Assembly (NCBI GenBank): GCA_031213475.1
Contig: JARUPZ010000034.1
Coordinates: forward strand, 620,001 to 684,000
Direction: 5' to 3'
Origin: Nereocystis luetkeana
Taxonomy: Eukaryota > Sar > Phaeophyceae > Laminariales > Laminariaceae
DNA: 64,000 nucleotides
Below the pieces are notes generated by a model that did not search any database, was not told where the DNA came from, and saw nothing but the letters and a program-made list of their open reading frames with translations. This document shows, piece by piece, positions 3,491-63,100 of the stretch; positions within the stretch are counted from its first letter, which is position 1, and the number at the start of each line of letters is the position of its first letter. The translations under genes were made by a program, and so were the position numbers.

Positions 3491-3775
3491 CGCGAAAAAG
3501 GACATTTTAATGTACATCCCGGGGAGCAGGACACAGCCACCGCTGGTACAGCAGGGAGGGGTGCTGTACCACCATCGTTGGATTTCCCCGACGGTGACAG
3601 AGGGAAAAAGGGGGACAGCCCGAAACGTGAGCTGCCCTCTGACATGCTTGGCAGTGGGTCTGCGGAGGTCAGCATTTTCCATAGAATAGCATTTTCCATC
3701 ACGTGATTCATATACCAGGTACCAGGTATAGGCTAGTGGGTAGTGCTTCCACAATCACCAACAGATATAGCCGGC

Positions 3776-3845
3776 GTCCCCGGTGGCTTGGCAGGCGGTC
3801 CGCGTGCCCACTCAGATCATTTTCGTTGGTTCGAGTGTCACCGAG
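3776..3845 (+). repeat. tRNA-like head of a SINE, separated from its body
   Basis: CGGTGGCTTGGCAGGCGG resembles a pol III A box, and TTGGTTCGAGTGTCACC lies at the B-box/T-arm position. The head is followed at once by the head of a second, complete SINE instead of by its own body. A headless SINE body follows that complete copy, so this head and the body at 4169 may be two halves of one element split by the insertion. Confidence 0.65.
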
Positions 3846-4168
3846 TCCGGTGCCCCGGTGGCTTGGTAGGTGGTTCGCGTGCCTATCAAGACCAATTTCG
3901 TGGGTTCAAGTCTCACCGAGTGCACATGCTCGCAGGAATTTTTCTTTCATGAAGAAATTGATTAGCGGAAAGCGCGAGAGCGTGAGATAGCTACATTCGA
4001 TGAAAATCGACGAGCAGTGAGAACGCTGAACCCTATGCGCGACAAAAAATAAAGGCACGTACCGGGGGGGAGAAGGGACGACACCTGTGACCACGGCTTG
4101 TCCAGAAGATCGCCGAGGGTAAAACCTCGTACGAGCTAGGCTGGAAAGTAAAAGTGATGAAAAAAAAA
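3846..4168 (+). mobile_element. tRNA-derived SINE, full-length copy S1
   Basis: The 5' part has a tRNA-like A box (GGTGGCTTGGTAGGTGG), a T-arm (GTGGG-TTCAAGT-CTCAC, five pairs with one G-T) and an acceptor-like CACCGAG end. A body of about 230 bp follows, with GCGGAAAGCGCGAGAGCGTG, GGCACGTACCGG and CCACGGCTTGTCCAGAAGAT, ending in an A-rich tail. Copies at 22483 and, inverted, at 24840 share head and body. Such elements are non-coding, transcribed by RNA polymerase III and moved by a LINE enzyme. Confidence 0.85.
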
Positions 4169-4410
4169 ACTCACAAGGACTCTTTCTTGCAAAAAAGTCG
4201 ATTAGAGGAAAGCGCGAGAGCGTAAGTTAGCAACATTCGATAAAAATCGACGAGCAGTGGGAACGCTGAACCTTATGCGCGATAAAAACGAAGACACGTA
4301 CCGGAGGGGAGACAGGACGACACCTGTGACCACGGCTTGTCCAGAAGATCGATGAGGGTAAACCCCCCTAAGCTGGAAAGTAAAAGGGATGTTGAAAAAT
4401 AAATATACAA
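4169..4410 (+). mobile_element. SINE body without tRNA head, copy S2
   Basis: Begins directly after the poly(A) of S1 with CTCACAAGGACT, the equivalent of the head/body junction in the other copies. It continues through the same body motifs to a short A-rich end. With the isolated head at 3776 it could be the older element into which S1 inserted. Confidence 0.75.
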
Positions 4411-8609: not shown

Positions 8610-9275
8610 ATGAACGTGTTCTACCATGTTCCGGCGGTCCACCCCACCGACGGCCTTTGCCTCAGCCTTTCTGCCGCTTGGCCCGCCGCCAACTGCCGGA
8701 ATGGGGTCGGCACCCCTGCCACCACCACCACGGCCGTTGGGCCTGTCGCCTGGATTGCCGCAGCCGCCATTGCCACTGCCACTCGTCGCGCGCGAGGCCA
8801 CTCTCCGGGTCCTATCGATCGCGATTTCACCATCGCGTTTAAAAGGAGTGCTGCCACGAGCACAGCCGCCGCCGCCGCCGCATGCTGGCGCTGTCGCCGT
8901 CGTGTGCACTGCCGTCACCGTTATTCAACAAGCGGCCAAACAGGCACTACTGCCCGCAATGTTGCCGTCTCCCTGGTTGCTATCGGCTTCGTCACTAGCC
9001 CCGTTGTCGATGGTCGCTCGCGCCTCGACGAAGATGTCACCTTTTACACCAACATTTTCCCTGGCGCTAGAGTCGTAGCCCCTACCGCCGCCACCACTCT
9101 CAACGCCATCGTAAACACCGCCGCAGCCGCTATACCGTATGTCGGTCGTCTCAGCCCCGGCCAGCAGTCCAGCCTGGTGACCCGTGGAAGCTTACAAAAC
9201 GTTGATGGACGTGATACTCAGTCTCTGCAGGAGAAGAAGCTACCAGGTATAGTCGTATCGCTTGTGGGGAGTTGA
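8610..9275 (+). CDS. uncharacterised Ala/Thr-rich open frame
   Basis: A 221-codon frame, Ala-rich over its middle third because the DNA is a run of GCC/CCG-like triplets. The same DNA is open in three other frames, including the opposite strand (8574-8918), so length alone is weak support. The last 90 residues have more ordinary composition (YTNIFPGARVV, AIPYVGRLSPGQQ) and could be an exon or a relic. No domain, signal peptide or splice context was recognised. Confidence 0.2.
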   Translation: MNVFYHVPAVHPTDGLCLSLSAAWPAANCRNGVGTPATTTTAVGPVAWIAAAAIATATRRARGHSPGPIDRDFTIAFKRSAATSTAAAAAACWRCRRRVHCRHRYSTSGQTGTTARNVAVSLVAIGFVTSPVVDGRSRLDEDVTFYTNIFPGARVVAPTAATTLNAIVNTAAAAIPYVGRLSPGQQSSLVTRGSLQNVDGRDTQSLQEKKLPGIVVSLVGS

Positions 9276-9885: not shown

Positions 9886-11860
9886 TCGGTGCGCGATACG
9901 ATAGGTCCGAATATCTTATCACCAATTGCCAGGTAAAACGGCAACCCAAATTCCATAAATAAATCATTGCCAACGTGAAACGGCAACCCCAAATTCCATC
10001 CTTCATCGTTGCCAAGGTACAACGGCAATCCCAAATTCCACCCTTCAGAATCGCCAAAGTAAAACGGCAATATTCCCGATACCAAATCTCTCAATCTCGA
10101 TTCCAGTATAGACCTCCTGAAACATATCAAGACAGTAACTATGGGAAGGGAAAACATCCAACAAACGTAAGTATGTTGGTAAAACCTTCAAACAAAATCA
10201 ATAACACCGTCTTCACATAGATATCGTATCCCCCGATAGCATTGGCCCCCCTGTTGTTTACTGTGGAAAAGCAGAACAACAGAACGTCTCTGATGTAGGA
10301 CATCTCAAATCGAACTATAATATCCCCCCTGCTATTGATAGGTGTTCACTCCGGGAGTATGCAAAAGTCAACAACATACTGCATCTGAATTTACAAGTAC
10401 TATGGATACTACTGTAGTAATTTTGGGTCCCCTGTACGTTGTGCATGCTTGAACAATAGCCGACGGGTACGGCGCGATTCATGAAGACCATCGGCATACC
10501 CTATTGGCGTGTTAGCATTACTCAACGCATGAGTACACCCCAAACACATTTTCCATCCCCCTAACAGATCCTGAAGTTGCACGTCAATTCTTCAAATATC
10601 TCCCAGAAACATTCCATGCATATCGAAACTCCTACTCGTATCCCACAAAACGAAATGCCTCAAAATCCCCGGCGAAACAAATCAGTGAATTAAATCACTA
10701 CAGGCTCATCACAAAGTCAAGCCCAAAACGAAACGCCTCAGCGGGCAACGGTTATATGAGAAAATCGGCATACTGCTCTTCCGACCGAACGTGTTGATCT
10801 CAGACTCCCCCCATTAGAAACATGGCTTAGACATTTGTATCCAGTAGGGGAAAACGATTAACAGGCATCAGCGCACAAAATCACTCCACCAGAGACAGAC
10901 CTCCGGTCAGTACCCTTGCGCGCATGGTCCGCATCCACGTATTATCTCACTCCAACTGAACTCCACTATCTGCGATAGAAAGTCTTCGTCGTGTTATCGA
11001 GTACTGCTACTATGCCCCCCCTGCTCGGTAGACGACAAAGCACTCATGAATAAAATGTTGCGATATCTTTATGACTCCAAAATACCTCAACCATAAAATA
11101 AAAAAGAAACTAACTCACGTCCAACCCCCCCGCAACTCCACCTCTCAACCTCCGTCTCCTGCTCCCTACAATACGGATGCGACGCTTGTCTCCCGCCGCG
11201 GCTCCATGTTGCCGCGACATTGACTACATCTCGCAAAGCCGCAGGTGCAGTGGGCAGTATCGGGTGGGTAGCTTTAGCGTCAGAAACCAATCCAATTCGT
11301 GTCAAAAACCAAGCCAATTCGTGTCAAAAACCAAGGCTACTCGTTAGATAATGAGTCACATCATTATGCACTATGTCTACGAGTAGAATCATGTCATCAA
11401 CCCCCCCCTCATGATTTCACTCAAAACAATGGTGACAAGACAACGTCAGTACCGATTTCTATAAATAGTTGGTCTTCCTCATATTCAAGTGGGTAATTGG
11501 CAACGCAGGTACGTCCGTTTGCCATTACAACTCGCGGCCTATGTGGACACAGCAGTACGGATTCAGGTAGCAGACGTGGTACGGTTCCCTCATACCCTCT
11601 GGTTAATATACGAGCACGTAGACAGCAGCTGCGGTGGAAATGCCTTTGTCATATCAGTATGAGACATACCAGGTACCAGGTACGCCACACCTTCCATAAT
11701 ACTGCACATTTCATGCAAGAACATACCAGCCGAACACAAAGAAAGTACAGAAAAGGACAAACAAAACAGATCCAGTCCACCAAAATCAAAGTGGGCGACA
11801 CTGGAAAAATATAACATGCCTATTTCCTAGGGTCGAAAGGGAAATTTCGCTTCCCGCTGC
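9886..11860. other. internal region of the LTR element without coding signal
   Basis: About 2 kb between the 3' LTR and the gag-like frame. Beyond the minisatellite and two TACCAGGTA motifs (11667 and 11674) I find no domain in any frame. This is where a polymerase would be expected in an autonomous element. Confidence 0.5.
9925..10085. repeat. 45-bp minisatellite inside the LTR element
   Basis: Three to four imperfect units of about 45 bp carrying AAACGGCAA(C/T)CCCAAATTCCA and TTGCCAA. They lie just inside the 3' LTR. The open frames over them are repetitive and not taken as genes. Confidence 0.7.
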
Positions 11861-15045: not shown

Positions 15046-18000
15046 CTACACCTTGACGTAACCTGGGTACTTCGTGTTGACGTCCTGCATCTCCCGGACA
15101 GCGTCCCCTAGAGCCACAGCGGTGCCGTGCGCTAAGAATTCTCGAATGCGGTAGTGACAAGGCAGAAGGGGCCCGCTCCACAGCCACTCTTTGAGGACCA
15201 GCATGGCCTTCTCCTCATTCCCATCGGGACATATTTCTGCCAAGGCTTCGGAAAACAACGACATCTCCGCTGAGCGTTGCGTTTTCGGAGCGTGGTTAGC
15301 ATCGACGCCATCTGTGTTGATGTCGTTATCCGGCCCGTACCGGCCATCCCTCGCCGTCGAAGCCTGAGTTGCTGCCTCGGGAAGAGCACGAAGAAATCCG
15401 TTGAGGGCCATCGTACCATCACGATCAGGTGATTCAGTAGCTTCCTGGATGAAAGGAGAATCACCTCCCGCGTGGACCGACCAATCTTGCGAAGGCACCA
15501 GACCAGCCACTTCCGCAAGGGCTTCCATGACCTCCAAGTAGCCCTGCGCAAGGGACATTTAGAAGTTTGATAGTATATAGTAAAAGGCATGTTTGTATTC
15601 CATGGTGATGTGAGCACATCGCATGACTCACAGATAGTGCTTACGATGACAAGTATCTAACACGGCAAGCTTACCTGCACTTCCTCCTCTAGCATGGCTA
15701 CCCGTTATTGCTGTACCAGCCGTACTTTTACCGCTTCGAATGTAGTACGCAAGGCCCTGACTACGATACCCTTGCCCGGGTTTCAGCTGCAAGACTCAAG
15801 CCCAGTAAACGTCGCGCCAACCACCTTTGCAACGTGAAGAAGTAGCCATCTCCGGGGTCCGCAGCTGGGGGTTTAGGACGTATGGCACTGCCTCAATGAT
15901 GCAGTGGTGTATTAGTAGTACGACTTTGTTAACGTCTTGTTAATATGAATATATTCTGCCACGGCTACTGGTGCGGCTGTTGCTTCCCCGTGTGTAGCAC
16001 TCGTCGAGCGACCGCGCTGTCGAGGTGCTACACTACCTGGTACTTGACTACGTATTAGGTGCACGAGTACGTTGTTACAGTGGTAATCATGGGCGAGGAG
16101 GACACCCTTTCTCACCGTCGCAAATTGAGAACGAGGCTGAGCGTTCCTGACGTCCCGTCTCTCTTGGAGGCCTGCTGCGCATATTTCGGCGGTCGGCGGG
16201 GGTACCGCGCCACTCCACATTCGCGCCACCCACCTGTGGCACAACAAACAGAATAGTGCTCCCGGGTTGCAGCAAAACAGATTGTGCCCACGATTGCTGA
16301 TCAATATGCGCGGAACGTATCGACAGAACAGGCAAACGAAATCCCACGATGATATTCGCCGCCAATACAATTATAACCATTGCTCGTTTTCGTGTTGTCA
16401 CTATTACGGGGGACCATATTAAATAGGACCTACGGTACACGCAAAAACCTATATATTCCGCTATTTTTACTATTATAAATAAACAATATTAGGTCTTATT
16501 TACTATGGACCCCCGTAATAGTGCAATAATTGCTTCGAAACCACCGGCGCATGCCCAGCAAGGCCACGAGCGAGCACACAACGCGCGGGCGCGGGTACGT
16601 CTCGGATTACATAGTTGAGTATTGCGAACCTCTCACCGCGCCTGAAGCTCTACCACCCCAAAATAAGGCGCCCTGTACACCCCGACGAATGCCAGGTTCG
16701 GCACGCAGGGGTTCCACGTCAGGGCATGAAGCAGAATGGGCTGAACCGAGTCGCTCTCATCAAACTCGTACTTCTCAAGAATGTTCGCGGGCAAAAAACC
16801 GATTTTCGGGCGCAGTCCAGTACAGCAAATAACGTGGTCAACCTGTTGGGCGGAGAGCGGGTTAACCGAGAGGGTACGATAGGATGGTATGACTGAGACA
16901 CTTCGAATGCGTTGCTTTTGCCTTCCGCTACAGTGTCACCCGATACTGGTTCAGATCGAAGTCCGGTGCTGGTGTGCTTACTTGCAGATGGAATGGGGCG
17001 TCTGCGAACGAGCTAAGGGCCAGCTCGCTTCGACAATAAAGAATAAGGAAGATACAAACACAGGAACTGCGGAGTAGAGGCCAACACCACAGGTCGTCGC
17101 AAAAACAACACAAATCTTCCCGGAACATGTGGACAATTGGCTTTAGATATCAATATATCAACTGCCCCTATTTTTCGGGGCGGAGTGGTACACATTGCTG
17201 GTGCGCTATTTGAAAGTTTGCGTGTACAGCATGCGGAAGAACTTGTCGTTTCGCCTCAATACGCTGGCTGATCGTGCATGATCCTCTGCTGGCACACCCG
17301 TACAAGAGCTTGAATATTTGCGCGTCACAGTATCCAGGTGTCTCACGTGTTCGCTGGTCCCATCCGAGAAGTGGACTTTGCTTTCTTGGACGTCGAGAGC
17401 GACCAACCTCGGTCTCACTTCAATACACCCGTCCCGTACCTGAAAAACAAGCGGTTTGTTTGCGACAAGCACCGTGACAGCTGGGCAATATGTACGATGT
17501 AGTCCCCAAGGCATTTCACGGCGGACGGAGCACGCAAGCCGTGTTGCTGGATCGAAGCCGCGCAAGTGTTAGCCTGCTAAATTATACACCGGTATAACCG
17601 TAGCACATGGCTGCACCGAACCTTGTTCAGGAAGGCCTCCGATATGGCGACACTGGTCGACACGTTGGGCCCGTTCTCAAGCCGCAGCGCTTCATGCACG
17701 TCGCCGGGGTCCTGGCCAGACAAATGAAGGCAATACGTCCGAAGCCCCATTAGCTTCTCTGCCGCAGACAAGTCCTTCGCTGACTCGCCTGCGGCGGCCT
17801 TGAGAGAGTACAAAACAAGGTCTAAAGGCATCCCATAAGCCGCCGACTCCTGGCTGGTATGGTCCCCATTTGCTCCTCCACAAGAGTGACCGCAGCCCCC
17901 TGTACGAGTTTCTGTTGTGGCCCACCTGGCTGCACCCTCTTCATCAACCAAAGCGCTAGACGCGCCTTTATCGTTGACATCCGTACACGCCACAGTAAAA

Positions 18001-21000
18001 CTGGCAGAGGGAGTGCTCCTGATGCCGGTCAAACTAGCAGAGGAGGTGCTGCTGGTGTTGTGCTCAACCTCGAGCTCCGCGATAACGCTTGGCGCGTCGG
18101 CTAGGGTAGTAGGTTGTTTGTCGGGATTCGGCACCGGCATCGAAAAAACACGGGGAAGAAATACCGATGCCCCGCCGGTGGCTACCACGCATTTCTCTAC
18201 TGTTTCAGTAAGACCTGGGGCGGTCGAGAAATATGGGCAGGAGCGGGGGGGGGGGGGGTCGTGTTTCGTTCGGTCTAGTGTTGAGCGCCGGAAAGCGCTT
18301 GAAAATGTACGACAACGTTTGATGGTAGTGTAGGAATACCTAGACTATGGCTCCAGTGAAATATATGTGCCTGTGGTCTTAGCACGCACACCGCTGTCGA
18401 GCGTCGGTGTCGTCCTTCGTTGTGCCACACTGGTACTGTCCTATTGCCCTATTCATGGTAAACACTCGAAGTATTTCCAAGTAGTAGGAGTAGTAGTAAC
18501 ATCAGCAACATCAGCGACAATGTACCTCTCCGGCTGTGCATACTCTTCCACGAGGCCTCTAGCTGCCGTACAAACAGTAAGAGCACAAACACAATGCCAG
18601 GTAAGCAGTAGGCCGCACCTCCCTTCCACCTTGCACCACAGAATAATGCACTACATAGGCATACTGTACGTCATCAAAACTACCTGACAGCCCTCACCAG
18701 AAGCAATCTCTGCACCGCTGAATGCGCAGCCAACCACTACGACCGATTTTCCAGAGAATTGTTCGGGGTCCCGGTATGCTCCGCTATGCGTGGCCCATCC
18801 GTTCTCCACCGCATCCGTGATTCCTCTCACTTTCTCCGGCGGAGGAAAGTAAGGTGTTACGAAAATCCCCGAGGCAATTATGCACTTGTCGAACGCGTCT
18901 GTCCTCTTTTGAGCCTTCCCGGTGCTTCCGTCACCAGCAGCAGAATTTGAGGTAAAGGTCACCTCCCATCCGCCGGACTTGGACGGTACGACTGCGGTGA
19001 CCTCGTGGCCGAACCGCACGTAGCGCACAAGATTGAAGCGCACTGCGTAGTCCTCGAGGTACTTCCTGACTTGAGCTTTGCTCACGAGACAAGAATTGTC
19101 AAATGCACAACACAAAAAACAGTACCAAAGCGCGCGGGAAGAGAGAAGCAAATGCGAATGAGATGCGTGGCTGTGCTTGCGGGAACGTGAGTGCCACTGT
19201 TATAAGCACATTCCCGCTTTACAGCTGTTGACCAGGCAGCCTCTGCCACTACATTTATGTGCGCTTGAAAGGACTCTCGATTTGCAGGGCGATCTTGAAA
19301 CAACGGCCGATGGGCACAGGTGGCATGGCATGACTCTCTGGCCTGGGGTCATCGACAAGCACGAGTATGACGTGTATCAGGTGGCCAGAAGGGGACTTCG
19401 GAGGCGCGGCAAAAATCTTCAAGCATGTGGAACAAGGGCTCATGTATCTCGAAGGATATTGGCCCGTAGACGCGGGGTCCTGCACGCGTACTCGCAGAGG
19501 TTGAGGTGGCATAGGTTTTCCTTCTACACGTCTGATATTTACACCACCAACATACCCATGACCTACAACGTTGGTGTTCACTGCTGGTACTGCAGCAAAT
19601 ATTCAGGTACAGCTGTATGATACTGGCACGGGTGCTACTACTATTAATAATACAGCACTCCTGCTGTTATGGTGTGCTATTCATTGGTTTCTATCGTCAG
19701 TACGATATCTCTGTCACAGCTTACACATGCTAACATGCTAAACCGCCTGCACTATTTATTTTTCGGACACCAAGCCCACGCTTTTCTACACAATGTGCTT
19801 GCACACCGGAACATAGGTATCGTACCGTGCCATTTCGCGTGGCTTGCTTACCGCACGAGGGGAACGTGGGGGCATCTTCAGGCCAGCGGAAGTCTGAAAA
19901 GCAGCAAGTGTGCTTCGACAGGTTCGTCTTCATCGACGTCCATACGCGCCCGCCACTGCGACCAGGGGGGGGGGCAAAACGTGTGACGCTGCATGCCTTC
20001 GGTGACTATTAACAGGGAGCGATATGCAGCCTTCCCGAAAACAACATGATGATGTTTCAGGAATCTGGAAATGTAAGGTTCCTAACACGTCCCACCCTGG
20101 ACGGAAATGAATGAACCGCTGGGGCATAACTATGAACACCAACCATTCTGTTTCCACCCAACTACTACAGTAGTACATAGACACAGAGGGGTTTACCCTG
20201 CACTTACTCTACTCGAAGCTCTCTCGCCAGCCTTACACTACGATGGTGTGAACTTGTCGAGGAGGGGGGAGAGGAAAAACCAATGGTCCGTGCAAACAAT
20301 GCCGTTCTTGAAGTCTGTTTGCACTGTACTGCATACTTTTACGTTTCGAAGCAAGGAAGTGTTGATCATGTTTGGTCTTCCGTGTATGGGTTTCGAAGAC
20401 CAGTCACCAACCAAATCCTTCCCTCTTTCGACCGGCACCAGAACGCTAACCGCCAACTTGCCCTGCCCTACCTTACCCTAACCCGCCCTGCCCTATCCTG
20501 TCCTATTGGTCGCCGGTGCTGACTGCAAGGTGAAAGTTAATTTTCCTAACCTGGTCCGACAGAGATACAGACTTATATCGCAACCAACTAACAACCCCAT
20601 CGTGTTCACATGTGGTAGAGCCAGCCAGCCCTTGCCTGCGACGTCGTTTGTGCCCGTCTATGTTCTGTAGAATCGTGATGTCTGTGGCCACAACTCTTCA
20701 AAATATATCTATGAATAAAATCGAGCGTCAATACGGAGACTTGAGTATACTGGATGTCTTTGGGTAGAGACAACAGTTTAGTCCTGTCTAGCGTAATGTG
20801 AGGACAACAGGAACTAAACGCCTTACTTACCGGTATGGACGAAAATAAAATGTTTGTTGGATGTAGATGTATACGCACGTTTTTGACACGCCTTGCATAT
20901 CCACTGCTTGATTCAAATATTGAACTAACAGTTGAGATTACGTCGACGGCCGTTGGTATTACTGCACGCGTAATATACTAGACTAATAGTGTCGATACTG

Positions 21001-24035: not shown

Positions 24036-24129
24036 GCTTGCTCCCGCGGGTCTTGTGCCTGACCTGATGGTGTCAGCGTCTTAGGTCTGTTGCATATTTC
24101 CCCTAGCCCCCGGCCAATAATGCTCGTAA

Positions 24130-24834: not shown

Positions 24835-24837
<3 letters not shown>

Positions 24838-24875
<38 letters not shown>

Positions 24876-26050: not shown

Positions 26051-26055
26051 GCCTA

Positions 26056-31990: not shown

Positions 31991-31993
31991 GGG

Positions 31994-35170: not shown

Positions 35171-35171
35171 T

Positions 35172-45605: not shown

Positions 45606-47320
45606 CTACGGACAAAACTACCCTTTGTAAGACACCGACCAGCCTCCAAGTGTAGTACCTGCTTTACTACATGATACCGACCAACCTCCTACGACAACTG
45701 TATAGCACCTGCCTACAGGACACCGACCAACCTCAAGCCCACGGTGGGAGGTAGAGGGGTCAATCTGGCTAGGCCACTATATATATATATATATGCTGTA
45801 CCTCCCTAAAAAAACAGGCTTTGCCCTACAAGTATATGGCCTTGCTCGCGCGAAGTGCAGCAAAGCGGCTCCCATGGAACGATCGTTTTTGTACAACGTC
45901 GATAATCGACGCCAAATTACAGTTAGTTAGTACTCGTAGTACAACCACGTCATAAATACTCCTTGAAGTCACAACTACACCGAGTAGTACTGCTGCTGTG
46001 GTACTGCTATTACTGAAGAAACTGCCTACAGGACGCCGACGAACCTCCGACTGCTATGTATGTTGTACCACCTGCCTCCCAGGTACTACAGGATACCGAC
46101 CAATCTCAAGCCTACGGTGGGAGGTAGTAGGGCGGCCACCTGGATTGAGCAACTGTGTACGGTATCACCCTCAAAGCCCAACTAATGATCTACGAGTAAA
46201 AATGGCCTTGATGGCGCGAAGTGTAGCAAAACGATTCCCATGGAACGATCATTGCCGTACATCGGTTGTCGGCGCCAAACTACAATCACGTCAAAAACGA
46301 TGCCCGTTGGGGTCACGACAAGAAGACCAGTCGTACAGTAGCATCTGGCTGCAGGACACCGACCAACCTCCTACTGTATCACCTGCCTACAGGTTACCGA
46401 CCAACCTCAAGCCTACGGTGGGAGGTAGGGGGGCCACCCGGCTTTTAGGCCACATTGTGCCGAATATTGAACCGATCAAATATCTACGGACTATCCTCTA
46501 CGAGTAACTGGCCTTGATGACGCGAAACGTACGAAAACGATCCCCATGGAACCATCATTTCCGTACGTCGAGTGTCCGCGCCAAACTACGGCCACGTCGT
46601 AACTTGGGGGCACGACAAAGCCTAGTAGTTATTACTACTAATAGCACCTGCCTACAAGGCATAGACCAACCTCAAGCCCACGGTGGGAGGCTGGGGGGGG
46701 CACCCGGCTAAGACCACTGTGTACTGTACCTCAAAACCGACGTTGACATATACGAGTAACCTTGCTCGCGCGAAGCATAACAAAACGGTTCCAACGGAAC
46801 GATCATTGTCGTATATCGATTGTCGACGCCAAACTACAACCACATCAGAAATAGGCCAGTAAATGACAAACAAAATGAGCTGTCGACTCCTGGGTGGGGT
46901 TATCCCAACCTCTCTTGATCGAACCTAAAAGGGGTCGACTAAAGAGGGCCGGGAAGTCCATGAAATGTGACACAGACGGAGTCTTATGTTATCTCTGTGT
47001 GGTACAGATGGACTATAGAACCCGCACACAAATACGAAAGTGCATTGATTGGGTAAAAGCTATTTTTACCCAGATCTCCAAGGAAGATCAAAAAAAAAAA
47101 AAAAAAAAAGAAATCGGGGTAACCACAACGACCACTCCCATAGCACGCGTGCTAAAGGATACCGGCCAACCACGAGCCCACAGTGGGAGATAGATATAGG
47201 CGGGCCACCCGGTTGAGGCCACTATCTATGAACCTCCTTCATAAACGAAGTTCGCTCTACGAGTAAAAGGCCTTGCTCGCGCGAAGCGTTAACAAAACAA
47301 TGATGCCCCCCGTGAAACGA
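45606..47320. repeat. diverged satellite field, right block (about 5 units)
   Basis: The same unit as 40866-44345 in the same orientation, with unit starts near 45874, 46241, 46546, 46793 and 47310. The 46793 unit is interrupted by a poly(A)-tailed insertion at about 46858-47111. Confidence 0.88.
46858..47111 (+). mobile_element. poly(A)-tailed retroinsertion inside a satellite unit
   Basis: The satellite sequence is interrupted after CACATCAGAAATA and resumes as GAAATCGGGGTAACCACAAC, so AGAAAT appears on both sides and can be read as the target duplication. The insert of about 235 bp ends in 19 A. It does not match SINEs S1-S4. It contains CTTGATCGAACCT, a weak B-box-like word. Probably another SINE or a processed RNA; parent unknown. 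Confidence 0.7.
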
Positions 47321-48736
47321 CCATTCTCGACGACGTGTGCTTCGGTAAGGGCGCTATACCCCCATTTCCAGTGTCTATCTTCGGCCACTCAGTCGAGCGT
47401 GGGCTCTGTACCTCACTCCCAAATGGGTTTGATTGATTTTTGTTGGCGCAACAACAGCGCAACAAACAATCCATTGTGGTGGTCTACTGCTCTATAAAAA
47501 AGAAAACGTGAAGATAATAAGATTAAGACTCCAACGAGCAACGAGGGTAGTCAATATCGTAGGCTGAATGCATTGTGGCTCTGAGCGCCTGACACCAAAT
47601 ACCTAAAACGATCCTCCGATCGTAGCTTTGGTCTTACTGTAAAGGTTGAGATAATTATTTAGGTTAGAGGCGCTGAAATGAGAAGGGAAGGGAGGTGCTG
47701 CTGTGGACAGGAAGCGAGAGATATACCGACCTAAACACACAATGGTTGGCAACAGTAAGTGTCATGGAGGGTGTAGGAGCAGCATGCGCCCAGCAGAAAA
47801 GGTAGATCATCTTGCCGCCGTGCCGTACGACTCCTTGCGTTTATAACTCGGACACCATGTAGCAGAATATCACCCCCCCGAATCACGCGGATAAATGATG
47901 AGTGGCCGTTGCTACAATCGCCACTTTTTACCTTCATGCTGTCCCCCCTGAAGTCCTAATCAGGAATCAGATACAGGTTGAAGTAATTTCTACTGTAGCA
48001 GTTGTAGTATTTAATAGATAAGAGTTTGTTTTGGATGTACTTGGTTTTCTTCTTGGGGGGCATACGAAGTGTTTTACGATGTTGTTGAGTTATCAACGAT
48101 GAAGCCCATCATGCAGCATAATGCTGCACATTTCTTTATATAATTGAAAAACAACAGCTAGCTGTGAGATCGAGGGTTTGTTCCAAACTCATATTTGCAA
48201 GCTCAAGTAGTGTGTGGTACTTCGACCGCACGTATTACGGGTGTTACATGGCCTCAAACAGGGTATACATACAGCCCGTACATGAGGACGACAAAATCTG
48301 AAGCTGCTGCAGAGTTCAAGGAGTGGGTGTGCCTATAGTTGGGAAATTAAAAAAAAGGGGAAAAAAACGAGTGGGTGTGCCACGAGTGGGAACTCCCCCT
48401 CCCCCCCTCCCACGGTGTGTATCTCATACCTGGTACCTGTTATTACTGGTCATGTACCTATGGTTGCTTATTAATAGCAAATCACAACAAGACGAAGTGT
48501 ACCGAACGTTTAAATGCAGCAGATGGAACCCTCAACAACAACCAACCGTATACACTCTGTTGCGTGTGCGCGGTTGATACTTGCATGATCGTGACATCTG
48601 CCCGCCTTGATCCTTGGGCCACCCGGTGTGCTTGGGGCTTTGACACCATACACTGCCTCTCTGAAAAGTGACGTCGCGACCGACCCTGGACGATGACACG
48701 ACACCAGCCGAACAAGGATTTCCCACCAATCAGAGT
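47321..48736. other. no gene recognised
   Basis: Short frames only; one TACCTGGTA at 48427, inside a run of TACCTG repeats. Confidence 0.4.
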
Positions 48737-48833
48737 TTAACCCCTTTAGAACCGCAGCCCCGTTTTGGGGACAAACCAGTCAAATTTCAAGTAGTTTGTC
48801 CCCAAAACGGGACAGCGGTTCTAAAGGGGTTAA
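48737..48833. mobile_element. MITE-A copy, near-perfect hairpin
   Basis: 97 bp, TTAACCCCTTTAGAACCGCA at one end and the reverse complement at the other, TTAA at both borders, centre CAGTCAAATTTCAAGTAG. Almost identical to the copies at 34095 and 56829. Confidence 0.92.
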
Positions 48834-50835: not shown

Positions 50836-50925
50836 CTTCCTCTTCCTCCTCCTACCTCTGCTCTGCTCTTCCTACTTCTCCTCAAGATTGCCGTCTATAG
50901 CAGCAGTTAGCGAGCGGTGCCTCTA

Positions 50926-51030
50926 TTACGGGGGGCCATAGTTAACAGGACCAAATATTGTTAGTAAAAATGGTTAAACATATAGGTTTTTATGTCTACC
51001 ATAGGTCCTGTTAACTATGGTCCCCCGTAA
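50926..51030. mobile_element. MITE-B copy directly downstream of the cysteine-rich gene
   Basis: 105 bp with TTACGGGG(G/A)CCATAGTTAA-type ends and TA duplications. It starts 18 bp beyond the stop codon (51050-51048, minus strand) of the modular gene, so it must form most of the proximal 3' UTR or carry the transcript end. Confidence 0.9.
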
Positions 51031-51047
51031 TAGTACTAGTCTAGGAG

Positions 51048-54000
51048 CTAGCATCTAGAGTGGTGGGCGCTAAAGGCGAGAGCCCCCAAGAAGGCGGCGA
51101 GGCTAGCCACTAAGGGTACAAGTCCAACAGGCGCCTGCAGCCTCGACTCGGCCGAGTTCACGGTGGAGTTGACGAAATCGTTGGCGTTTCCAGACAAGAA
51201 GGGGGTAGGGGTGGGCACCGGAGTGGTCGCGGGCGCCATGGTGGGGGCAGGCGTGACTGCGGCAGAGGGCAGGGGGTGGCAGGGGGGGGGCAAGGGCAGC
51301 AAAGGGAGCAATGGTAAGCGAGCATCTGGTCGATATCTGTCATATAGTATAACCTGGACGGGCTGTGTTATTCGCCTTTGCCCTCTTTGGACTTGAGAGA
51401 GGGACGTTGCCGACAAAAATAGCCTATTACAGTATGGTAACGCCCACCGCGTGATTGGGGGGGGGGGCGGGGGGGGGGGGGGGGGGGGGTGATACAGATT
51501 GGTGTCCTGACTGCAAAGCAAAGCAGTCGTGCGGCAAAGAGCGCAGCAAGACAATGCCCCTCACCGCCGCTGGGGCGCTCGCGCTGCTCGTAGACGGTTC
51601 AATGGTTGGATGACACCGGAGATACCAACCATTTGGATGGCCACTGTCAAAGGGGCCCCAAGGCATCTAACCGTTACAGAGACTGCCATGCTACCATGCT
51701 ACCAGGTATATTTTTTGGGCAGTCAATACCCGGTGTCCATGCAACGATACCAAATACAGCAGCAGTGGCGCAAACGCTCGTGCTACCAAGAACCTAACAA
51801 AACAGGCGGGGACCGGCGGAGCACGAACAACCCCTCACGTCGCACAGGCCTACATCGCACGGGCTTATAGCGACTGTTGCGTCAGTCTCACCGCGGCGCG
51901 ACGCGCTGGGGATTCGGCGGATATCATCCTCTCTAACGCAATCGAGGAGGGAACAACAGACGACAGCAACCCCCAACTATGGTGTTGCAACAAACGCAAA
52001 GCGTAGCAGACGGGATGAGGACGGTTGCTCATTGGGCAGACCGAAAAACAACGACCAATACGCAACCTACGAAATACGTACCTGGTTTGTACACACAGTT
52101 CAGGACACCCACCGGTAAGAAGCGGGTAGGCAAGCCGGAAATCTCATTCGAGACCGGATCCCGTCTACACCAACTTCAGAATAACGACTCAAAGAAATTA
52201 TTATTTCCCTGTAAAATATCACCCCGGCTTCTTTATTGCTCGTTTTCTTATGTGGTGTTCTGTGCTGTACTACACATCCATCTTTCTTTCTTTTGTTTCA
52301 AACGGTGTACGACAAAAGCAGAACACGGCGTCACACTCCACCCCAGCTCAGCATGAAAAGAAAACCAGTGGGGTGGGAGATTTGTGTGTGTACCTAAAAA
52401 AAAAAATGCTTCGATTTCCTCGATTTTTGTATGCCCCCGCCTGGGCCTCCATAAAGCTATTAATAGTGGAGTATAGTGGAGTATACGAATACGTACGTAC
52501 TCGGGCTACTAATAGAGACGATGCGATGAGACAGCAACCAACACCATCAATATCGTCCATCGCTGTCCACCATCCAGCAACGCACACAAGCCGACGACAC
52601 TCGCAAGTATCCTGCTGCGCGAGGTATCAGCGAGAGTTACGGCACAGGACGCCGATAGGAGTAACCTAAAAGCCGGTCCGGGCTGGTTTTCTTATCTGAC
52701 AGAGGGTAGAGGGTGCTTTCCACACCAACTTCGAGATAACCACTCTTATGTCACTATTTCCCTCTGAATCTCAGTCTGGCTTTCTCACTAGATTGCCTGT
52801 CACTGCAGTAACTGTCCTCTACTCCAGCACTTCTATACGCTATTCGTGCGCCATGATGTGTTTCAAACTCCCTTGCAGCGGACGTGTAGTGAGGTGTAGT
52901 GCGGTGCAGCGCATTGTGATGCAGTACAGTGTACCTGGTAGTGCAGTACAGTACAGTGCAGTGCAGTGCAGTGGAGGGGCTAGGAGTGTAGTGGAAAGTA
53001 GTCATGTCTAGTGCGCGATCGTGGCTAATAGTACATCACGCAGGTTTCCGTGCACCAACTTACAGGGTACGATGCACGGGGCGACCACCTGCCCTCCGCA
53101 GTTCTGACCGGCGGTAAGGATTGTCGATGGGCAGCAATCAGAGGCACCCGCCGTTCCGGGCACCTGGCTGCATCCGTCTCCGCCACAGAACCCGCAAGAC
53201 ATCTTCAACAATGACAACAACACAAGAACAAGGACGAGATGGAGAAGCACAACAACAGGATCAACAGCAACAAGATCAAGAAAAAATATCAACATCAACG
53301 AAATAACAAAAAACACAAGTACAAGAGCACGGCAACCGCAGCAACATAGAATATATGTACCGACAGAGACGGAAGGGAGAGGCGAAATACGACGAAGGGC
53401 AGAATCGAAAGGAGAGAGCCGGGATCGACGCAACGAACAGAGTGAGCGAAGGAAACCAGCAGTGGCACAACGCGCGATCCAAGCATCACACGCAGCTAGC
53501 TGGCAAAGATTGATTATCGACGAAAACTTTCGACTTCAACCTTGAGGTCTCTTTTAACTTCGACAAAAAATAAGGCCTCATGTGACGTCTAGGGGGCAAG
53601 ATTTTCGATCTCAACGCTAAGGCGTTTCTTCAGTTTTCATAAAAAAGGAGGGGCTTATGTGACGTCTACAGTACGGGCTGCAAGGTCGGACGGGCGGCAA
53701 TCGATCGGCAGCCAGCAAAAACAGGCTACTACTAGTACAAATATCAAGAGCATTGACATCACCCAGCGAAGGAGGGACGCGAACGTTTTCCAACGCTATT
53801 GGTGTTGCGAGTTTTCTCGACGTGGGATCAAAGTCGAACATTTTCCTTGCGGGAGGCTCTCTTTATCTCAACAGATATTTCCGAAAACGTCTCCCTTGTT
53901 GGGTACTGGAAACCTTTTCACTTCTGGAGAAGTCGAGAACTGAAAAACGATCGCACGCACCATCCTGAGCGAACGCAACGCTCTCCCAGTAGGTGCGGCA

Positions 54001-54161: not shown

Positions 54162-57100
54162 CTGCGATGGGGTTCAGCACGGGGCGGGGGGGGGTCGGGA
54201 AAGTACCCGCACGGGGCGGGGGGGGGGGGGGGGTGGGGGCAGGAACATGACACCGACCGAGGTGAAAGGTGATGTAGAGTGATGGGTAGGGGCAATCACA
54301 GATTACATCCACTTTATCGCGTGTCCACAACAGTTCATAATACTCGCAAACACCCGAACTGACCACCGAACGCAGCCGAAACTATGAGAAAAGCAGCAGC
54401 AGCAAAAGCAGTGGCAACAACCGCAGTGCCAAAGGTAGCTCAGCAGCAGCGGCGGGGGCGGCGGCGGCGGCGGCAATTGGAGCGAGTAGTCAACACGTTA
54501 CTCGAGCTCGTCCCCCTTCAAGCGGTGGCGCGATACTCAGAACGCGAAAGCATCCACACCGTTTTGAGCATAGTGCTATGTTTGCTGTTGTTCGTGCTGT
54601 TGCTCAAAACGCCGCCAGCAACAAGGTATGCGGTACAGAATATCCCTGTGCGTATATATCAGGTACCTGGTACCAGGTATGATACAGCAAGCAGAAAACC
54701 TCACGCGGAAACCGGAAATACCCAACAAAACTAACAAGCAAACAAGCTACACACGATCAAAAGCTACAAGCAGACCAAGCGACCAGAAATAAAACAAGCA
54801 CGCTAACAACCAGATAAAGAAGGCGGAACAAGCAAACAAAGAAGACGAAAAAAGCAAGCCGTCAGATAATTCACTACAGACAGACAAACAAAAAGCAAAA
54901 ACACAACCAACGAACAACAAAGCACACGAGACAAACAAAACACACACACACACAAGTATTTCCCACGAGAGCTGCGATCCATCTTGAAAAAAAAAGAAGA
55001 AAAAAAAATATGCGAGGTCCTGGGTAAAAAACTAACAAAAAAAAAAGAACGAAAAAAAATAAAATATAGGTATGCAGAACGCCTTATGACTGCGACAACA
55101 CGACGAGAAAGACGCCAGGAAGGAGACACCACTCACCCACAGGGGCAGCCGATCCGATCACGGCCGGCGACGGAGTGTTCACCCAGTCGGTGATGATGCA
55201 CGGAGCGGCGCCGGCGTTCTGGCAGGACGTGCCGTTTGCTGAGATGGAGGTGGAGCAGCAGGCGTCTGGCCCCGCCGTTCCCGGAATGGCGCCACACCCC
55301 GCGCCACCGCACTGGCCGCAGTTTTCCGCACAGCTTTAAGGCCGATGCGTTGAAATCGTTGCAATGCGGCCATTCAGTTCAGTCCAGTCCAGGTGGGGGA
55401 TAGGGGAGAGTAGGGCAGGGCAGGAACAAGGGAGGTGATCGGGGGGTGGGGGGGGCGGGGGGGGGGGGGGGGGGGGGGGTTAATGCCTTGCCCAAAATAG
55501 CGAAGGAGAGTCCATCGAAAAGGCAGCCGATAAGGCAAGGCGGCTGTAAGGATTTTACTCTTACCGGCTGGGGGTACAGTAGTCATTAAACTATTGACAG
55601 GTGCAGTGGTATCAATCGTGATACATTAGTGCATTAATGCACATCAGACAGAGCATCTACCGATCATTCCCACTTGTGGAAGCTCTAATTATTTCAGGGC
55701 AGATAGACATACCTGATCTGTATGATCTGTATGGTATATATTATCAGTATGATATATATGGTCTGTATGATCTGTATGACCTAAAAAACCTGCAAGATTT
55801 ATTGTAGGACATATTTCCTGGATATGTATTAATAGTATTAATGCACAAATCCTTCACAACATCTCATAACGGCAGGTTAGGGTCTCGAAGATGTGTAGAT
55901 TATCTATCTGTAGATGATCTATACGTAGATGAACTATCTGTAGATGAATTATCTGTAGACGATATATCTATGCTAGGTGTGAAAAACATGTATGTAAGGC
56001 CAAAAGTATGGACGCTTAGAATCTGTGTGGGAAACGCTTCGCACCAGAAAAAACAAAACTCAAGAAAACCAACTAATATCTCGGACGTGGCTTCAAAGTC
56101 TCGATGACATCCTTAGGCGAGGCTGGTTGCGCGTCCTACACAATACAATGACAAGAAGAGGTACCAGGCACCAGCCACTTCTGATCGGGAGTACAGCCCC
56201 CGTTTTCTACTATTACGGGGGACCATAGTAAATAGGACCTACGGTAAGACAAAACCTCTTTACCTATTTTTACGAACAATATTTGGTCCTATTTACTATG
56301 GTCCCCCGTAATAATATTAATATGAGAGTACTGTGACAGGAACTATTCATACCAGGTTATACCCTACTGTTAGGCATGGGACTGGAGGCCAAAATATCCT
56401 CAACAGGTCTCCAGTCAGAGCGGTAGTCCCGAATACAAGCGCATATGGTAGGTGTATCAGAGTGGAAGTACACCAGGTATACGAGAATGGTATTTATTTA
56501 GTTATTTTATTGGTTTCTTGACGCTTTTGGGACTGCAGTCCCGTTTTGGGGACGGAGTGCTCTGAGTTTGACTGCATTGTGCCCAAGGAGGTTGATGTCC
56601 TACATACTGTACCATAAAACGGTTGAGCTACGTTGAAAAGTCGAGCCAAACTTTAGAACCAACTGCCGGCACCCGCATCGTTCGGTACTAAGGGTCGCGA
56701 TCTCAACGAGGCTTTTTTTTGTTTTTTTCAATTTTTTCTCGAAATTTCGGTATTTCTCGGTATTCGAAAAGAATACCGAAATTTCGGGAAAATACTGAAA
56801 AACTAAAACTAAAACAAAACAGTACTCGTTAACCCCTTTAGAACCGCAGTCCCGTTTTGGGGACAAACTACTTGGACTTTGAATGGTTTGTCCCCAAAAC
56901 GGGACTGCGGTTCTAATAGGGTTAAGATCGACCTCAACCACTTTTCCCTTCATGAATACCAGCAGCAGCAGGAGAACAAAAAAACAAAAACAAAAAACGA
57001 CTATGGGCCAGACTCAAACGCTTGTTTTCTTTTCCAGAGTATGTAAGGCAGATTGTTTCCTTCGTAAAAAAAACAGTTTCCCGAGAAAACAAACGTATGT

Positions 57101-60100
57101 ACGAGTATATAAACATGTTTATGAATCGTGCATAAGTCGAGAGCCAACATTTCTCAAAAGCCCTTACTTAGCACTGCACGGTTTTTTCCAAAAATTGAAT
57201 AAAAAGATGTCCCCCAAAACGTCGTGTGCAGTCACTGTCAGTCAGTCAGTCAGTCATCCAGTATGTCACTCATTCAGTCAGTCAGCCAGTCAGCCAGTCA
57301 GTCAGTCAGCCAGTCACTCAAGTCACTCCCGAAGGATAGCTGCATGTCTCCATGCCACGATATTTAATACGAGGCATTCATCGGTCTGAAGGAGTCTTAC
57401 CAGATGTCGCCGTTCTGGACACCGTCGAAGCCGTTCGTGCACGTGGACGCAGCTTCAAGAGTCCAGACGTTGAAAACAATCGTGGACCGACGCATCACGA
57501 TGGGAGAGGAGAGCGGAGGGGGGCGAGGGGGGGAAGGGGGGGGGGGGGGGGGAAACGAAAGAAAAAAAATTGGTGGCGGGCACAAGCGTCCGCACAACAG
57601 CGTTTATTCCTATATGCGGCTACGGCAATGCATAACACGAGTATACCCTAGGCAAGCACAAACTCAGTACGCCCCTCGCCCCCACCCACCCACCCACCCA
57701 CCCACCCCCACACCCTCATCTTACCGAACGGAGCAGCCACACCGGGCACGCCCGCGGGAGCCGGGGTGTAATTCTGGATCACGCACGGCGCCACAATGCC
57801 GTTGCCGTTGCCGCAGAAGTTCTGCTCGAGCAGCACGGTCGAGGCGCAGCAGTTGCTCGAGCCCCCCGTTCCGGGGATCGTTCCGCAGCCCACGCCGCCG
57901 CACTGTCCGCACTCCTCCTTACAGCAGGCAGCGCCGTTCTGCACGCCGGGGAGCCCGTTGCTGCACGTAGATTGAACTGCCAGGATTGAAAAAAAAAAAA
58001 AAAAAAAACGGGGCGAAAAAAAAAAGAAACCACCATCAAATCAGACCAAAACAAGGAAAAAAGCGGGGAGCAAACAAAATGGAGAACCGGACAACAAACA
58101 AACTGCGGTGGAGGATTAAGGAGCCAGGCAAGAAACATAATTTGGGGGGAGAGAACGGATGGAGGGCCGGAATGATTGGGCGAAAACATGGAACCACAAA
58201 CACGAACAAAAAAAATGCGATAGAAAAAAAGATTCACACAGAAAAGAGAGGGGTCAGGACAGACGGAACCCGACAAAACAAATGTTTGGGTTGCAAACCG
58301 TAACCAGCCAAGAAAAATCATACGTAGGGGGTTAACGAAACGGATGCGGAGGAGGGCGAGGGAGGGAGGGAAGGAGGGAAGGGGCAGGAGTGGGGGCGGG
58401 GGGGGGCAGTGTTGACGACTTGGCCCAGCTTTGATTACGTAAATAGTTCATAACTCGCACTAACTCCTTCCTTGACTAACCCTTTTAGGACTGCAGTCCC
58501 GTTTTGGGGACAACCTATTACGGGGGATCATACCAGGTAGTAAATAGGACCAAATATTGTTAATAAAAATAGCGAAACACATAGGTTTTTGGGTGTACCG
58601 TAGGTCCTATTTAATATGGCCCCCCGTAATAGAACTGAGTGCTTCGTGCCGAAAACGGGACTATAGTTTGTCCTAAAAGGCTAATTACTAGAATTTTCCC
58701 GTACGATCGGGTTGGGTTTAGGGTTTTTTTACGGTCGCGTATACTAACCACTGCTGTGTCGAACCAGGGCTAAGGTGATATGTGTACAGCCCTCGTGAGG
58801 CGTCGCGGGGGGGGGGGGAGGGGGGGGAGGGGGGGGGGGTGTACTCGATAGGAGAGATGTACTCGATCTCATGCATGGCCGTAGTCGTATGACCATAGAC
58901 GCTCGCATCCCTACAATACCGGGACGGAGCATGTTGGGTTTTCACCGACCAGGCAGACATTGCTTGCACCAAGCGCGAAGCGCCGTGAGGTGTCTGGCGA
59001 GTCTCATGAAGGGTGAGCTGCATCCTACTAAGAACCGCTTTTGAGGCGGACTTGCATATGGACGACAGCTTCAATGAGTTGATTTAATTTCCGGGGGGGG
59101 GAGGGGGGGTACTCATGTCATGCATGGCCGTAGTCGTATGAGCATAGACCCTCGCATCCCAACAGCGCCCGGGACCTATACAGCACATCGGGTTTTCACG
59201 GACCAAGCAGGCATTGCTTGCACTAAGCGCGGAGCGCCGTGGGGTGTTCGGCGAGTCGCATGCAGGGTGAGCTGCATCCTACTAGGGAGCTTGTTAGGCG
59301 GACTTGCACATACTGTAGATGACAGCTTCAATGAGTCAATTTAATTTCCGGTGTGGCCAATTCCAGGGACCACTATGGGGGTACTATGTAACTGCCTCGT
59401 GGGTGGCTTACCATGAACACTACGTGATGCGACCATTCCCCTTGTGCGGAGTAAAGGTTCTTCCTTCCGCACAAATGATCTATAACTCGATCGCCTGCTG
59501 TGACTGACCGCCAAAAAAAAACAAAACGGTACCCTGGGTGCCTGCCGTAGCTCAAGTAATGATCATAAGGTTTCACGGTGTCGTTGCCAACCGACACCAA
59601 CCCAACCAATAGATGGAGGAGGGAAGGGGGGGGGGGGGGGGGGGGGTCAGTGGATATAAAAACGACACCGAAGTTGTGGGCGAAGCGAAGGAAGGGGAGG
59701 AGAGGTCGCTTCTTTTGGCCGCGATGGGCAATGAGTGAGCGATGGAGACCGATGGGTAATCGACCACATACCACTAGCAATCAAGAGTGAAAGAGAAAAA
59801 CGCATAGATTGAGACGGAGAGGCACTCGCCGACAGGATAGGCAGTACCGACGAAGGCGGGATTGACAGGGGACGGGGTGAAGCCGCCGATGATGCAAGGT
59901 GGTTCAACTCCGTTTCCGCACATCTGGCCAGGTCATGGATGGGGGGGTGTGCACACAAGAACACACGTACACACGGCAACAAGCAAGAAACGAGAGGCAA
60001 AAGGTAAGAGAGGGGAGAAAAAATAGGTAACATGCAACGGACAACGGGCAGAATAACAAGGGGGAAGAGAAGATACTAGAGACACGGGACACACGACAAG

Positions 60101-63100
60101 ATGCCATCGTACCGTGTAAGAGGTATGGATGGCACTGTCGGTACCTACTGGCACTTGAATAGTTACCTTCGACGATAGCTAAAATCACGCAAGGAGTCGA
60201 CAGTCGTGTACCTGGTATGGTGTACATACCTACAGTACATACCAGGTACGAATAGTAGCACACGCACACGGTTGATGATTCTCAAAGTCGGTTTCTGGCC
60301 TAGATATATTTGTAGAACTCTAAATCTTGATTGACCCTCCCCCCCCCTCCCAAGCAAAGACGTATGGCCGTAGTCTTATGGCCATAGAATAGATGCAAAC
60401 GACGGAGCATGTCGGGTTTTCACCGACCAGGCAGACATTGCTTGCACCAAGCGCGAAGCGCCGTTAGGTGTCCGGCGAGTCGCATGAAGGGCGAGCTGCA
60501 TCCTACTAAGAACCGCTTGTAGAGGAACTTGCATACGGAAGACAGCTTCAAATTAGTTAAATTAATTTCCGGTGTAGACATTTCCAGAGACGCCAATGAG
60601 GAGGCGGGGGGGGGGGGGGTACTCGATAGGAGAGATGTACTCGATAGGAGAGATGTACTCGATCTCATGCATGGCCGTAGTCGTATGACCATAGACACGG
60701 GGGGGGGGGGGGGTAAGTGACTAACCTGGCCAGTCTCTCGGACGGAGGAGGAGCAGCAGAAGTCGGACCCGCCTGTTCCGGGGACGGTACCGCAGCCAGC
60801 CCCTCCACACTGCCCACAAGCCTGCGGTAATACAAAAGCGGGACAGCATACAAGGAGCAGGTGGTGAACCGGCAGCGTACCATCATCACCACCACCATCA
60901 CAAACCATCACAACACCACGGCCGCCATCGCCACCATACCTACCAGCATCACCACTGCCACTACAAACATTGGGCTGTTGCAGTATTACGGGGGACCATA
61001 GTAAATAGGACCAAATATATTCATAATAAAAATAGCGAAATAAATAGGTTTCAGTGTGTACCGTAGGTCCTATTTAATAGGGTTCCCCGAAATAGTACAA
61101 AACACCCCACAAATGTCCAGCACGGGACGACTATTAATAGTCACCCACCTCAAGACAGCAGACGTCCAGGTCCTGGTAGCCAGGCATGCCGTTGCTGCAT
61201 GTGCTGGGAACTGTCACAGCATGAAAGGATAGGATATTAATGGGGAGTATATACCCAATGGACAGAATATGGGGGATGGGCGGTAGTCAGTCCTTGCTAA
61301 TACTATGTGCCTCGTCTGTCGATTGGAATGATTGAAGAACATCAGAAGTGCTTCTGCAGAAACGGCCGCGTTTTATACTGCCGCTGCCACCATTATCGAT
61401 ACTACTACCTATACTACTACCACTACGACTACCACTGTTCATAATATTGTTGATGCTATTACTACTACATATATTACTGCTACATATACTACTACTACTG
61501 CTGCTACTACTGCTGCTGCTACTATCATTGGCTAGCACCAACATTAGAATACCATCAATACCAACTAGTACAATACTGCTGTGCAAATAAAAACGTTCAC
61601 AAGTACAGCAAACAACACACACCATAGCAGCACACATCGCATAAACCAAATGCCCACACGCACACCAAAGAGTCCTATTAAGATCCGAAGCGGCAAGCTC
61701 TACAGCTATTCGCTCTGCTACACCATCTCACCAACGGGAGCAGCAGAGCCAAAGTCTGGAACCACCGGAGCTGGAGTGTAGCCTTCGATCACGCACGGAG
61801 ATTCGTTGGTCACATCGCACGACTGGCCTGCCGTCTTTACGAACGAAAGCACGAGACGGCACAACAAAGTGTGGTGAGCTCAAGCTGGCTCAATATATTT
61901 TCGTGTATCTTACCAATCCGCCGGAGGATTATAAACCGAAGCAAAAACAAAACCAAACAAAAATAGCGCAAGAGCAAAACAAGCGTCGTCGCGGGAAAAG
62001 GCAGTCATGGGGTCCGGGGTGGCAGTTCCTACAATATTTTAGCATGAGGCACGAGCGGCGCCTCCTTTTGGCAAAAAATGGTACGCCGTGCCGTGTATTC
62101 AGATGTTCGACGACAAGCAGGGTACGTGTCTTCAAGCTCAGGGCACGGGTTGGTATCCAAATAACAATAACCAGGGCGTTTTTCTGTGCGGGGTTAGGGA
62201 ACTGCTTGGTTACAACCACCATGAGCGCAGACAGACATTCATTTCCAGGTAGAGTTACGTATATACAACCGTCACGATTACGGTGCTTTGTTACTTGGAC
62301 ACGTAGCACACCGGGTCTGTTGTCTAGAATAGGCATAGGCAAAATCGGTATGATCCTATTCCTATAGGAGGCCTATCTACGGTTGCTCGTGATAGGGATC
62401 GATCGGCACGTTGTGGAGCCAGCTGAGGCCGACATAAGATATCGACATGCAATACTCCAACCTATTGACGTATTGACAGACCAACAGGCGCATTCAACAA
62501 GCTACTGCCCAGAGTTCGATACTTGGCACATAGGATTGTCTATCAAGCTTAGCTTTACCCTTACTATCAAAATTCGGTTGATCGATGATACTGGAACTCC
62601 CGAAGCGAGGAAAGAGCCTCAGAGCCCGCACCACTGCCGAAACCTTCTCTTATCTCACCCCCCTCCCCTAATCCTGCACGCCTACACATGCTCATACTCT
62701 CTGGAAAACTCACCAGGACGATGGACGAGCAGCACGCCGCAGACCCAGCAGTACCAGAGATCGCTCCGCAGCCATCGCCACCACACTGACCACAGTTTGC
62801 CGCGCAGCACTGTCATCCCGCACCAATGACGTGTTCAGGCGGTTTTGCGGCGGGGGGGGGGGGGGGGGGGGGGGGGTACTCATGCCATGCATGGGGAGGA
62901 GGGAGTAGGTCTGCTTTGTGCCGTGGCACGTAAAGGTGCTATGAATACGCGCATACCTGGTAGTATATACGGTTGCGGTGTGTGTCCTAACGAAACATGT
63001 GCCGATGAGCTCCAAATAGCGCGAAAAAGTAAAGACTTCTTCCGGTCGATCAGTAATCCACTGAAGTAGCCCCGCAGATAAATGCTAAACCGCCGGCCAA

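Follow-up and report, generated by a model that had tools for sequence, protein, structure and literature searches.

Sequence comparison with sister repeats indicates that the 9-bp word TACCWGGTA, found in 27 copies in the window (the whole 64-kb stretch of DNA analysed), is a young, TA-targeted class of 7-bp insertions that changes TA to TA-CCWGG-TA and is derived relative to the sister repeats. With moderate confidence, we interpret the copies as 5-bp excision footprints of a TA-specific, Tc1/mariner-like transposon, the donor of which is hypothetical.

Abundance and arrangement of TACCWGGTA

A recount recovered all 27 copies reported in the initial annotation, comprising 15 TACCAGGTA and 12 TACCTGGTA, at a density of one per 2.4 kb; the coordinates also agreed, except that the copy placed at 60208 starts at 60209. 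Dinucleotide shuffles (n=100) yielded a mean of 0.50 copies with a largest count of 3, and order-3 simulations (n=60) a mean of 0.52, again with a largest count of 3, in line with the earlier estimate of about 0.5 in 64 kb. The Markov expectation is 0.55 at order 3 and 0.93 at order 4; the values at higher orders, 4.1 and 11.5, come from models that learn the word itself. In the 60 order-3 simulations, the highest count for any complex 9-mer was 9, and TACCWGGTA heads the 9-mer ranking of the window once C runs, A runs and a CAG repeat are set aside. The excess of TACCWGGTA in the window is confirmed as real.

The match to the word is nearly all-or-none. Of the 28 TACCNGGTA in the window, 27 have W at the centre, TACC[CG]GGTA occurring only once. 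Forms with one mismatch are present 20 times (17 of them apart from true copies) where 13.0 would be expected, an excess that perhaps represents four to seven one-base-decayed copies beside the 27 intact ones. The similar numbers of the two forms had been attributed to mismatch repair, an argument that fails: TACCAGGTA and TACCTGGTA are reverse complements, so strand symmetry alone yields the ratio, and 15:12 shows random orientation only and is no evidence for mismatch repair.

Merging of tandem copies gives 22 separate arrays, listed here without strand:

3713–3728: tandem array of two, TACCAGGTACCAGGTA; TA at +7
9241–9249: TACCAGGTA
11667–11682: tandem array of two, TACCAGGTACCAGGTA
16034–16042: TACCTGGTA
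21176–21184: TACCAGGTA; TA at +7
22457–22465: TACCTGGTA, ~20 bp upstream of a SINE-like repeat
22740–22748: TACCAGGTA within a SINE-like repeat; TA at +7; sister 3855–4166 without the 7 bp
23007–23015: TACCAGGTA; TA 7 bp off on both sides
24359–24381: tandem array of three, mixed centres (A, T, T); TA at +7
24398–24406: TACCAGGTA
24463–24471: TACCTGGTA; TA at +7
25390–25398: TACCAGGTA
25523–25531: TACCTGGTA; TA at +7
44353–44361: TACCTGGTA; TA at −7
48427–48435: TACCTGGTA; TA 7 bp off on both sides
51700–51708: TACCAGGTA
52932–52940: TACCTGGTA; TA at −7
54664–54679: tandem array of two, mixed centres (T, A); TA at −7
58531–58539: TACCAGGTA within a MITE1 arm; TA at +7; clean change against 10 other arms
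60209–60217: TACCTGGTA; TA at +7
60240–60248: TACCAGGTA
62954–62962: TACCTGGTA; TA at +7

The tandem arrays contain five extra units, compared to 0.21 expected at random. A and T centres occur together in two of the four tandem arrays, a pattern not produced by simple duplication. The arrays are also unevenly spread: 11 copies in 9 arrays are packed into 4.35 kb at 21176–25531 (P 0.0016, for a stretch picked after looking), three neighbours fall within 70 bp (P 0.02), and the 18.8 kb from 25532 to 44352 are free of the word (P 0.0085).

Filled and empty sites in repeats

Self-comparison of the window (pairs of at least 45 columns, E up to 1e-4) placed only two of the 27 copies, at 58531 and 22740, in well-aligned repeats, and both have a sister that lacks exactly 7 bp. 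The alignment of sister repeat copies, which had been proposed as a check, shows a state without the 7 bp for each of them. The first lies in MITE1, an inverted-repeat element that measures ~112 bp when empty, has ends CTATTACGGGGG and is present in six copies in the window:

58515–58632, plus strand: MITE1 copy holding the insertion at 58531
60984–61097, plus strand: MITE1 copy, empty site
56209–56313, minus strand: MITE1 copy, empty site
50923–51034, plus strand: MITE1 copy, empty site
26053–26164, plus strand: MITE1 copy, empty site
16400–16521, minus strand: MITE1 copy, empty site

At the 58531 position, 10 of the 11 MITE1 arms are empty (e.g. GACCATAGTAAATAGG) and one is filled, reading GATCATACCAGGTAGTAAATAGG; compared to the other arms, it shows a clean change from TA to TACCAGGTA. 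The second copy lies in one of two SINE-like repeats that are 81% alike:

22488–22783, plus strand: SINE-like repeat with the insertion at 22740
3855–4166, plus strand: sister SINE-like repeat, empty site (CCTCGTACGAG)

The filled copy reads CCTCCTACCAGGTACGAG where the sister at 3855–4166 reads CCTCGTACGAG. Placing the gap as an inserted CTACCAG needs no substitution and placing it as a TA insertion needs one, and both placements are possible at 81% identity. A more distant sister at 4290–4403 likewise lacks the insert and has a further 2-bp difference. A query for the empty site of 51700 retrieved a 40-bp match of 70% identity (E 0.14), which was dropped as chance.

Several other repeats were noted along the window. 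The SINE-like repeats at 3774–4403 and 22482–22783 have heads that look tRNA-like by eye (GTGGCTTGG...GGGTTCAAGTCTCACC); ARAGORN and Rfam gave no match in the window, these heads included. A second inverted-repeat element, MITE2, of ~97 bp with ends near ACCCCTTTAGAACCGCAGTCCCGTTTTGGGG, lies at 34095–34191, 48737–48833 and 56829–56925. Tandem repeats at 29337–30505 contain all 10 window copies of the odd palindrome TACTCSGAGTA, and 40879–47298 holds many diverged repeats that appear coding-like by eye.

The MITE1 end was also found in three contigs from bacterial genomes, JALZVB010000211 (L035), JALZWC010000131 (L034) and JALZWD010000061 (L033), titled as Saprospiraceae and Flavimaricola MAGs and spanning L033:1–12215, L034:1–8227 and L035:1–4244. 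They are probably chimeric or contaminated records, with an algal-looking start followed by bacterial-looking DNA, the borders being our own reading of G+C, long ORFs and repeat matches. The algal-looking part runs to about base 3650 in L033 and 980 in L034 (~4.6 kb together), and in L035 the shared sequence is confined to about the first 117 bases. These parts contain three TACCWGGTA in L033 and one in L034, compared to none in the bacterial-looking remainders of 8565 (L033) and 7247 (L034) bases. Two of the three L033 copies are inside MITE1: the insertion at L033:2762 is a clean 7 bp and occupies a different TA of the element, and L033:2824 is a 7-bp insertion only relative to the MITE1 subtype at 16397 (by eye), the difference from most copies being 11 bp. 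Altogether, 12 MITE1 copies were aligned (two of them partial), three of which hold TACCWGGTA, at three places. The derived state is seen in three repeats (58531, 22740 and L033:2762) and less cleanly in a fourth (L033:2824). The TA-specific micro-insertion proposed in the initial annotation is thereby borne out, as a change from TA to TA-CCWGG-TA at 58531 and L033:2762, and at 22740 with one substitution. MITE1 copies diverge from one another by roughly 8–29%; set beside this, the scarcity of decayed TACCWGGTA indicates that the insertions are young relative to their host repeats.

The algal-contig search matched only G003 among 394 genomes of one family, and G001, G002 and four weak matches (E 1e-4 to 7e-4), which were dropped, among 398 genomes of another; G001:C85 holds one more MITE1 copy. 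Counts of TACCWGGTA against a reversed control were 23 vs 14 in G001, 60 vs 34 in G002 and 5 vs 8 in G003, and were read, from the totals, as ordinary bacterial counts. The tandem form of the word occurs in nine viral contigs, at one place each, and was taken as chance from G+C (35–65%) and counts alone. Viral contigs yielded no match to the MITE1 end or to one stretch each of MITE2 and the SINE-like repeat.

The target itself is biased. The copies had been described as sharing no flanking sequence, which is nearly right, but 16 of the 44 outward flanks have a second TA at a distance of exactly 7 bp from the target TA, against a background of 7.3% over all TA sites (p 3e-8). Such a TA is present on at least one side in 14 of the 22 arrays, whereas none of 2000 draws of 22 random TAs exceeded 11, even at the most favourable of ten distances; allowing 8 bp as well raises the figure to 18 of 22, a choice made after looking. 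Of the 10 empty MITE1 arms, 7 already have the second TA at the position of 58531, as do the empty sister of 22740 and the sister copies of L033:2762 (all by eye), so the second TA preceded the insertion; at L033:2824, the empty state has no second TA at 7 bp. The base outside the target TA is A in 1 of 44 flanks (background 18.7%, p 0.001). On the other side, a TA at 7 bp is also fairly frequent at generic TA-5-TA sites (90 of 486 flanks, TACCWGGTA copies included) and hardly occurs beside TACWGTA (5 of 60). The tendency of the target TA toward another TA exactly 7 bp away is a new observation, and a palindromic preference around the TA, as expected for a Tc1/mariner footprint, is present.

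Possible origins of the insertion

In the excision model, an element would insert at TA, duplicating it, and leave by staggered cuts ~5 nt inside both ends, so that 3' overhangs CCAGG (or CCTGG) would remain on both flanks. The overhangs could pair C:G, C:G, G:C and G:C around one A:A or T:T mismatch, the repair of which would fix the W centre. The C(A/T)G scar left by Sleeping Beauty is likewise put down to overhangs that pair around one mismatch. Strong pairing through G:C may be why the product is uniform, and the target bias at 7 bp would be that of a dimeric enzyme. Each footprint would offer the preferred TA-5-TA spacing and so give rise to tandem arrays, and the clustering of nine arrays in 4.35 kb would fit local hopping. 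We infer that a longer element was once present, together with the sequence of its ends, the stagger of 5 nt, the family of its transposase and the way in which the break was repaired.

Against this model stand the lack of a donor in the window and half-sites at chance level. TA-CCWGG or CCWGG-TA half-sites number 15, compared to 14.5 ± 3.9 in simulations, and have no sequence in common; the pair at 23515 and 61178 matches at 16 of 25 bases (32-bp alignment, E 0.12) and was set aside. No convincing inverted-repeat element of 40–8000 bp with CCWGG ends was found within the window, the best candidate, with 10 of 15 bases matching, being read as chance. A Pfam scan of 30 of the 47 stop-to-stop ORFs of at least 150 aa in the window revealed no transposase; the only match above cut-off is a partial flavin-binding monooxygenase-like gene at 18654–19199 (PF00743, E 1.3e-15), and a PCEMA1 match (E 0.006) fell below it. 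Of the TA transposon with CCWGG ends postulated earlier, the insertion at TA is therefore upheld, but neither an excess of half-sites nor a matching element appeared in the window. Moreover, Tc1/mariner footprints vary, whereas TACCWGGTA is nearly uniform and its shorter variants show no excess (TACCGGTA 2 vs 1.6 expected, TACCAGTA 3 vs 3.2, TACCTGTA 1 vs 2.2). At the observed density, the genome would also hold very many excision events, which counts against the model.

Other candidate scars were counted in the window. TACCGTA is mildly high (13 vs 6.9 expected). TACWGTA occurs 30 times against 12.4 expected, partly through the repeats at 41–47 kb. One of these, TACTGTA at 59311–59317, lies where sister repeats at 58958 and 60436 lack 5 bp, the gap of the second being split in one alignment; by this comparison it seems to be a Sleeping Beauty-type 3-bp CWG scar, a point in favour of the excision model. 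The pair TACGAGTA/TACTCGTA could be a 4-bp scar class, with 18 copies against 2.45 expected, several of them in the 41–47 kb repeats, two in one duplicated repeat and the others apparently independent:

1856, 9552, 10633, 11378, 13703, 25706, 25822, 29625, 41951: TACGAGTA/TACTCGTA, copies 1–9
42243, 43406, 44866, 45931, 46191, 46499, 46751, 47258, 57100: TACGAGTA/TACTCGTA, copies 10–18

A mariner-like footprint from CCA ends with 3-nt overhangs, one terminal mismatch and fill-in would yield the same CCWGG product on paper with no 5-nt stagger, and the ends of the Mos1 mariner begin CCAGG. The full fill-in product TACCATGGTA is present at two places, compared to ~0.1 expected, but two are few beside 27 TACCWGGTA, and the simple Mos1-like product TACCATA/TATGGTA is not in excess (5 vs 8.4 expected). 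We regard this route as rather unlikely.

A direct, fixed micro-insertion would dispense with a longer element altogether, an enzyme adding CCWGG and a copy of TA at a TA. The 7 bp would spread by themselves or through a templated or end-adding reaction, and the product would recreate the TA-5-TA target. The nearly uniform product, the element ends that are not in excess in 64 kb, the equality of the TA-5-TA target spacing and the insert period, and the tandem arrays all speak for such a route. On the other side, to our knowledge no enzyme performs this reaction, the W-centred dyad is the outcome of excising a symmetric transposon, and a 3-bp Tc1-type scar also seems present in the window, at 59311; we judge the direct route distinctly unlikely. 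Its strict form, in which the TACCWGG unit spreads through a brown-algal genome by inserting directly at TA pairs and never had a longer parent element, we doubt strongly. If true, TACCWGG would be the smallest self-propagating insertion yet proposed, with its own product as its best next target.

A binding site or regulatory word under selection, such as that of a dimeric transcription factor, would suit an odd palindrome that is strongly enriched, but is very improbable given derived 7-bp insertions in single repeat copies at differing positions, with empty sites in their sisters, and few graded near-matches (20 vs 13.0). A sequencing or assembly artefact or chance has a negligible probability, as shuffles and simulations reach at most 3 copies and the word recurs in algal-looking DNA of other public contigs.

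Relation to known systems and meaning

The excision-footprint reading finds its closest parallel in Sleeping Beauty and Frog Prince, whose footprint is given as C(A/T)GTA in the cited passages of PMC3878927. TACCWGGTA shares with them the TA target, the TA at both scar ends and the W-centred dyad, and differs from the Sleeping Beauty scar in having one more G:C pair on each side. At 58531 (against 10 arms) and at L033:2762 (against sister MITE1 copies), the insert sits precisely at a TA and is bordered by TA on either side. In the passages cited, Tc1/mariner overhangs are 2 or 3 nt (PMC3878927) and footprints 2–4 or 0–4 bp (PMC7913693, PMC9976928), whereas the present scar is 5 bp; a palindromic target preference is described there for the Tc1/mariner element ZB (PMC7913693). 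Compared to the Sleeping Beauty and Frog Prince footprints, TACCWGGTA is nearly uniform, with many scars but element ends that are not in excess. It acts like a Tc1/mariner footprint but is not classed as one, because a 5-bp scar lies outside the described range and the element and its transposase are unseen.

The footprint of Minos consists of the 4 terminal bases between the TAs. Minos is Tc1-like with a stagger of more than 3 nt, but its scar is 4 bp and has other letters. Among the literature matches listed, no description of a TACCWGGTA insertion class was found.

Ectocarpus, according to the sections cited of PMC12477816, has 17 Mariner-Tc1 families with almost 12,000 copies, mostly non-autonomous, which makes a donor elsewhere in the genome plausible. 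The host of the window is probably a kelp-like brown alga, and those families provide a plausible host lineage and superfamily, but the cited sections describe elements, and neither "footprint" nor "excision" occurs in the main text.

If the footprint reading is true, Tc1/mariner-type excision would extend to a 5-bp scar. Such scars are almost invisible to repeat annotation, which seeks elements; they would constitute a readable record of past jumps and ready presence/absence markers. If the density in the window holds genome-wide, one transposon family could account for a large part of the recent small insertions in this lineage.
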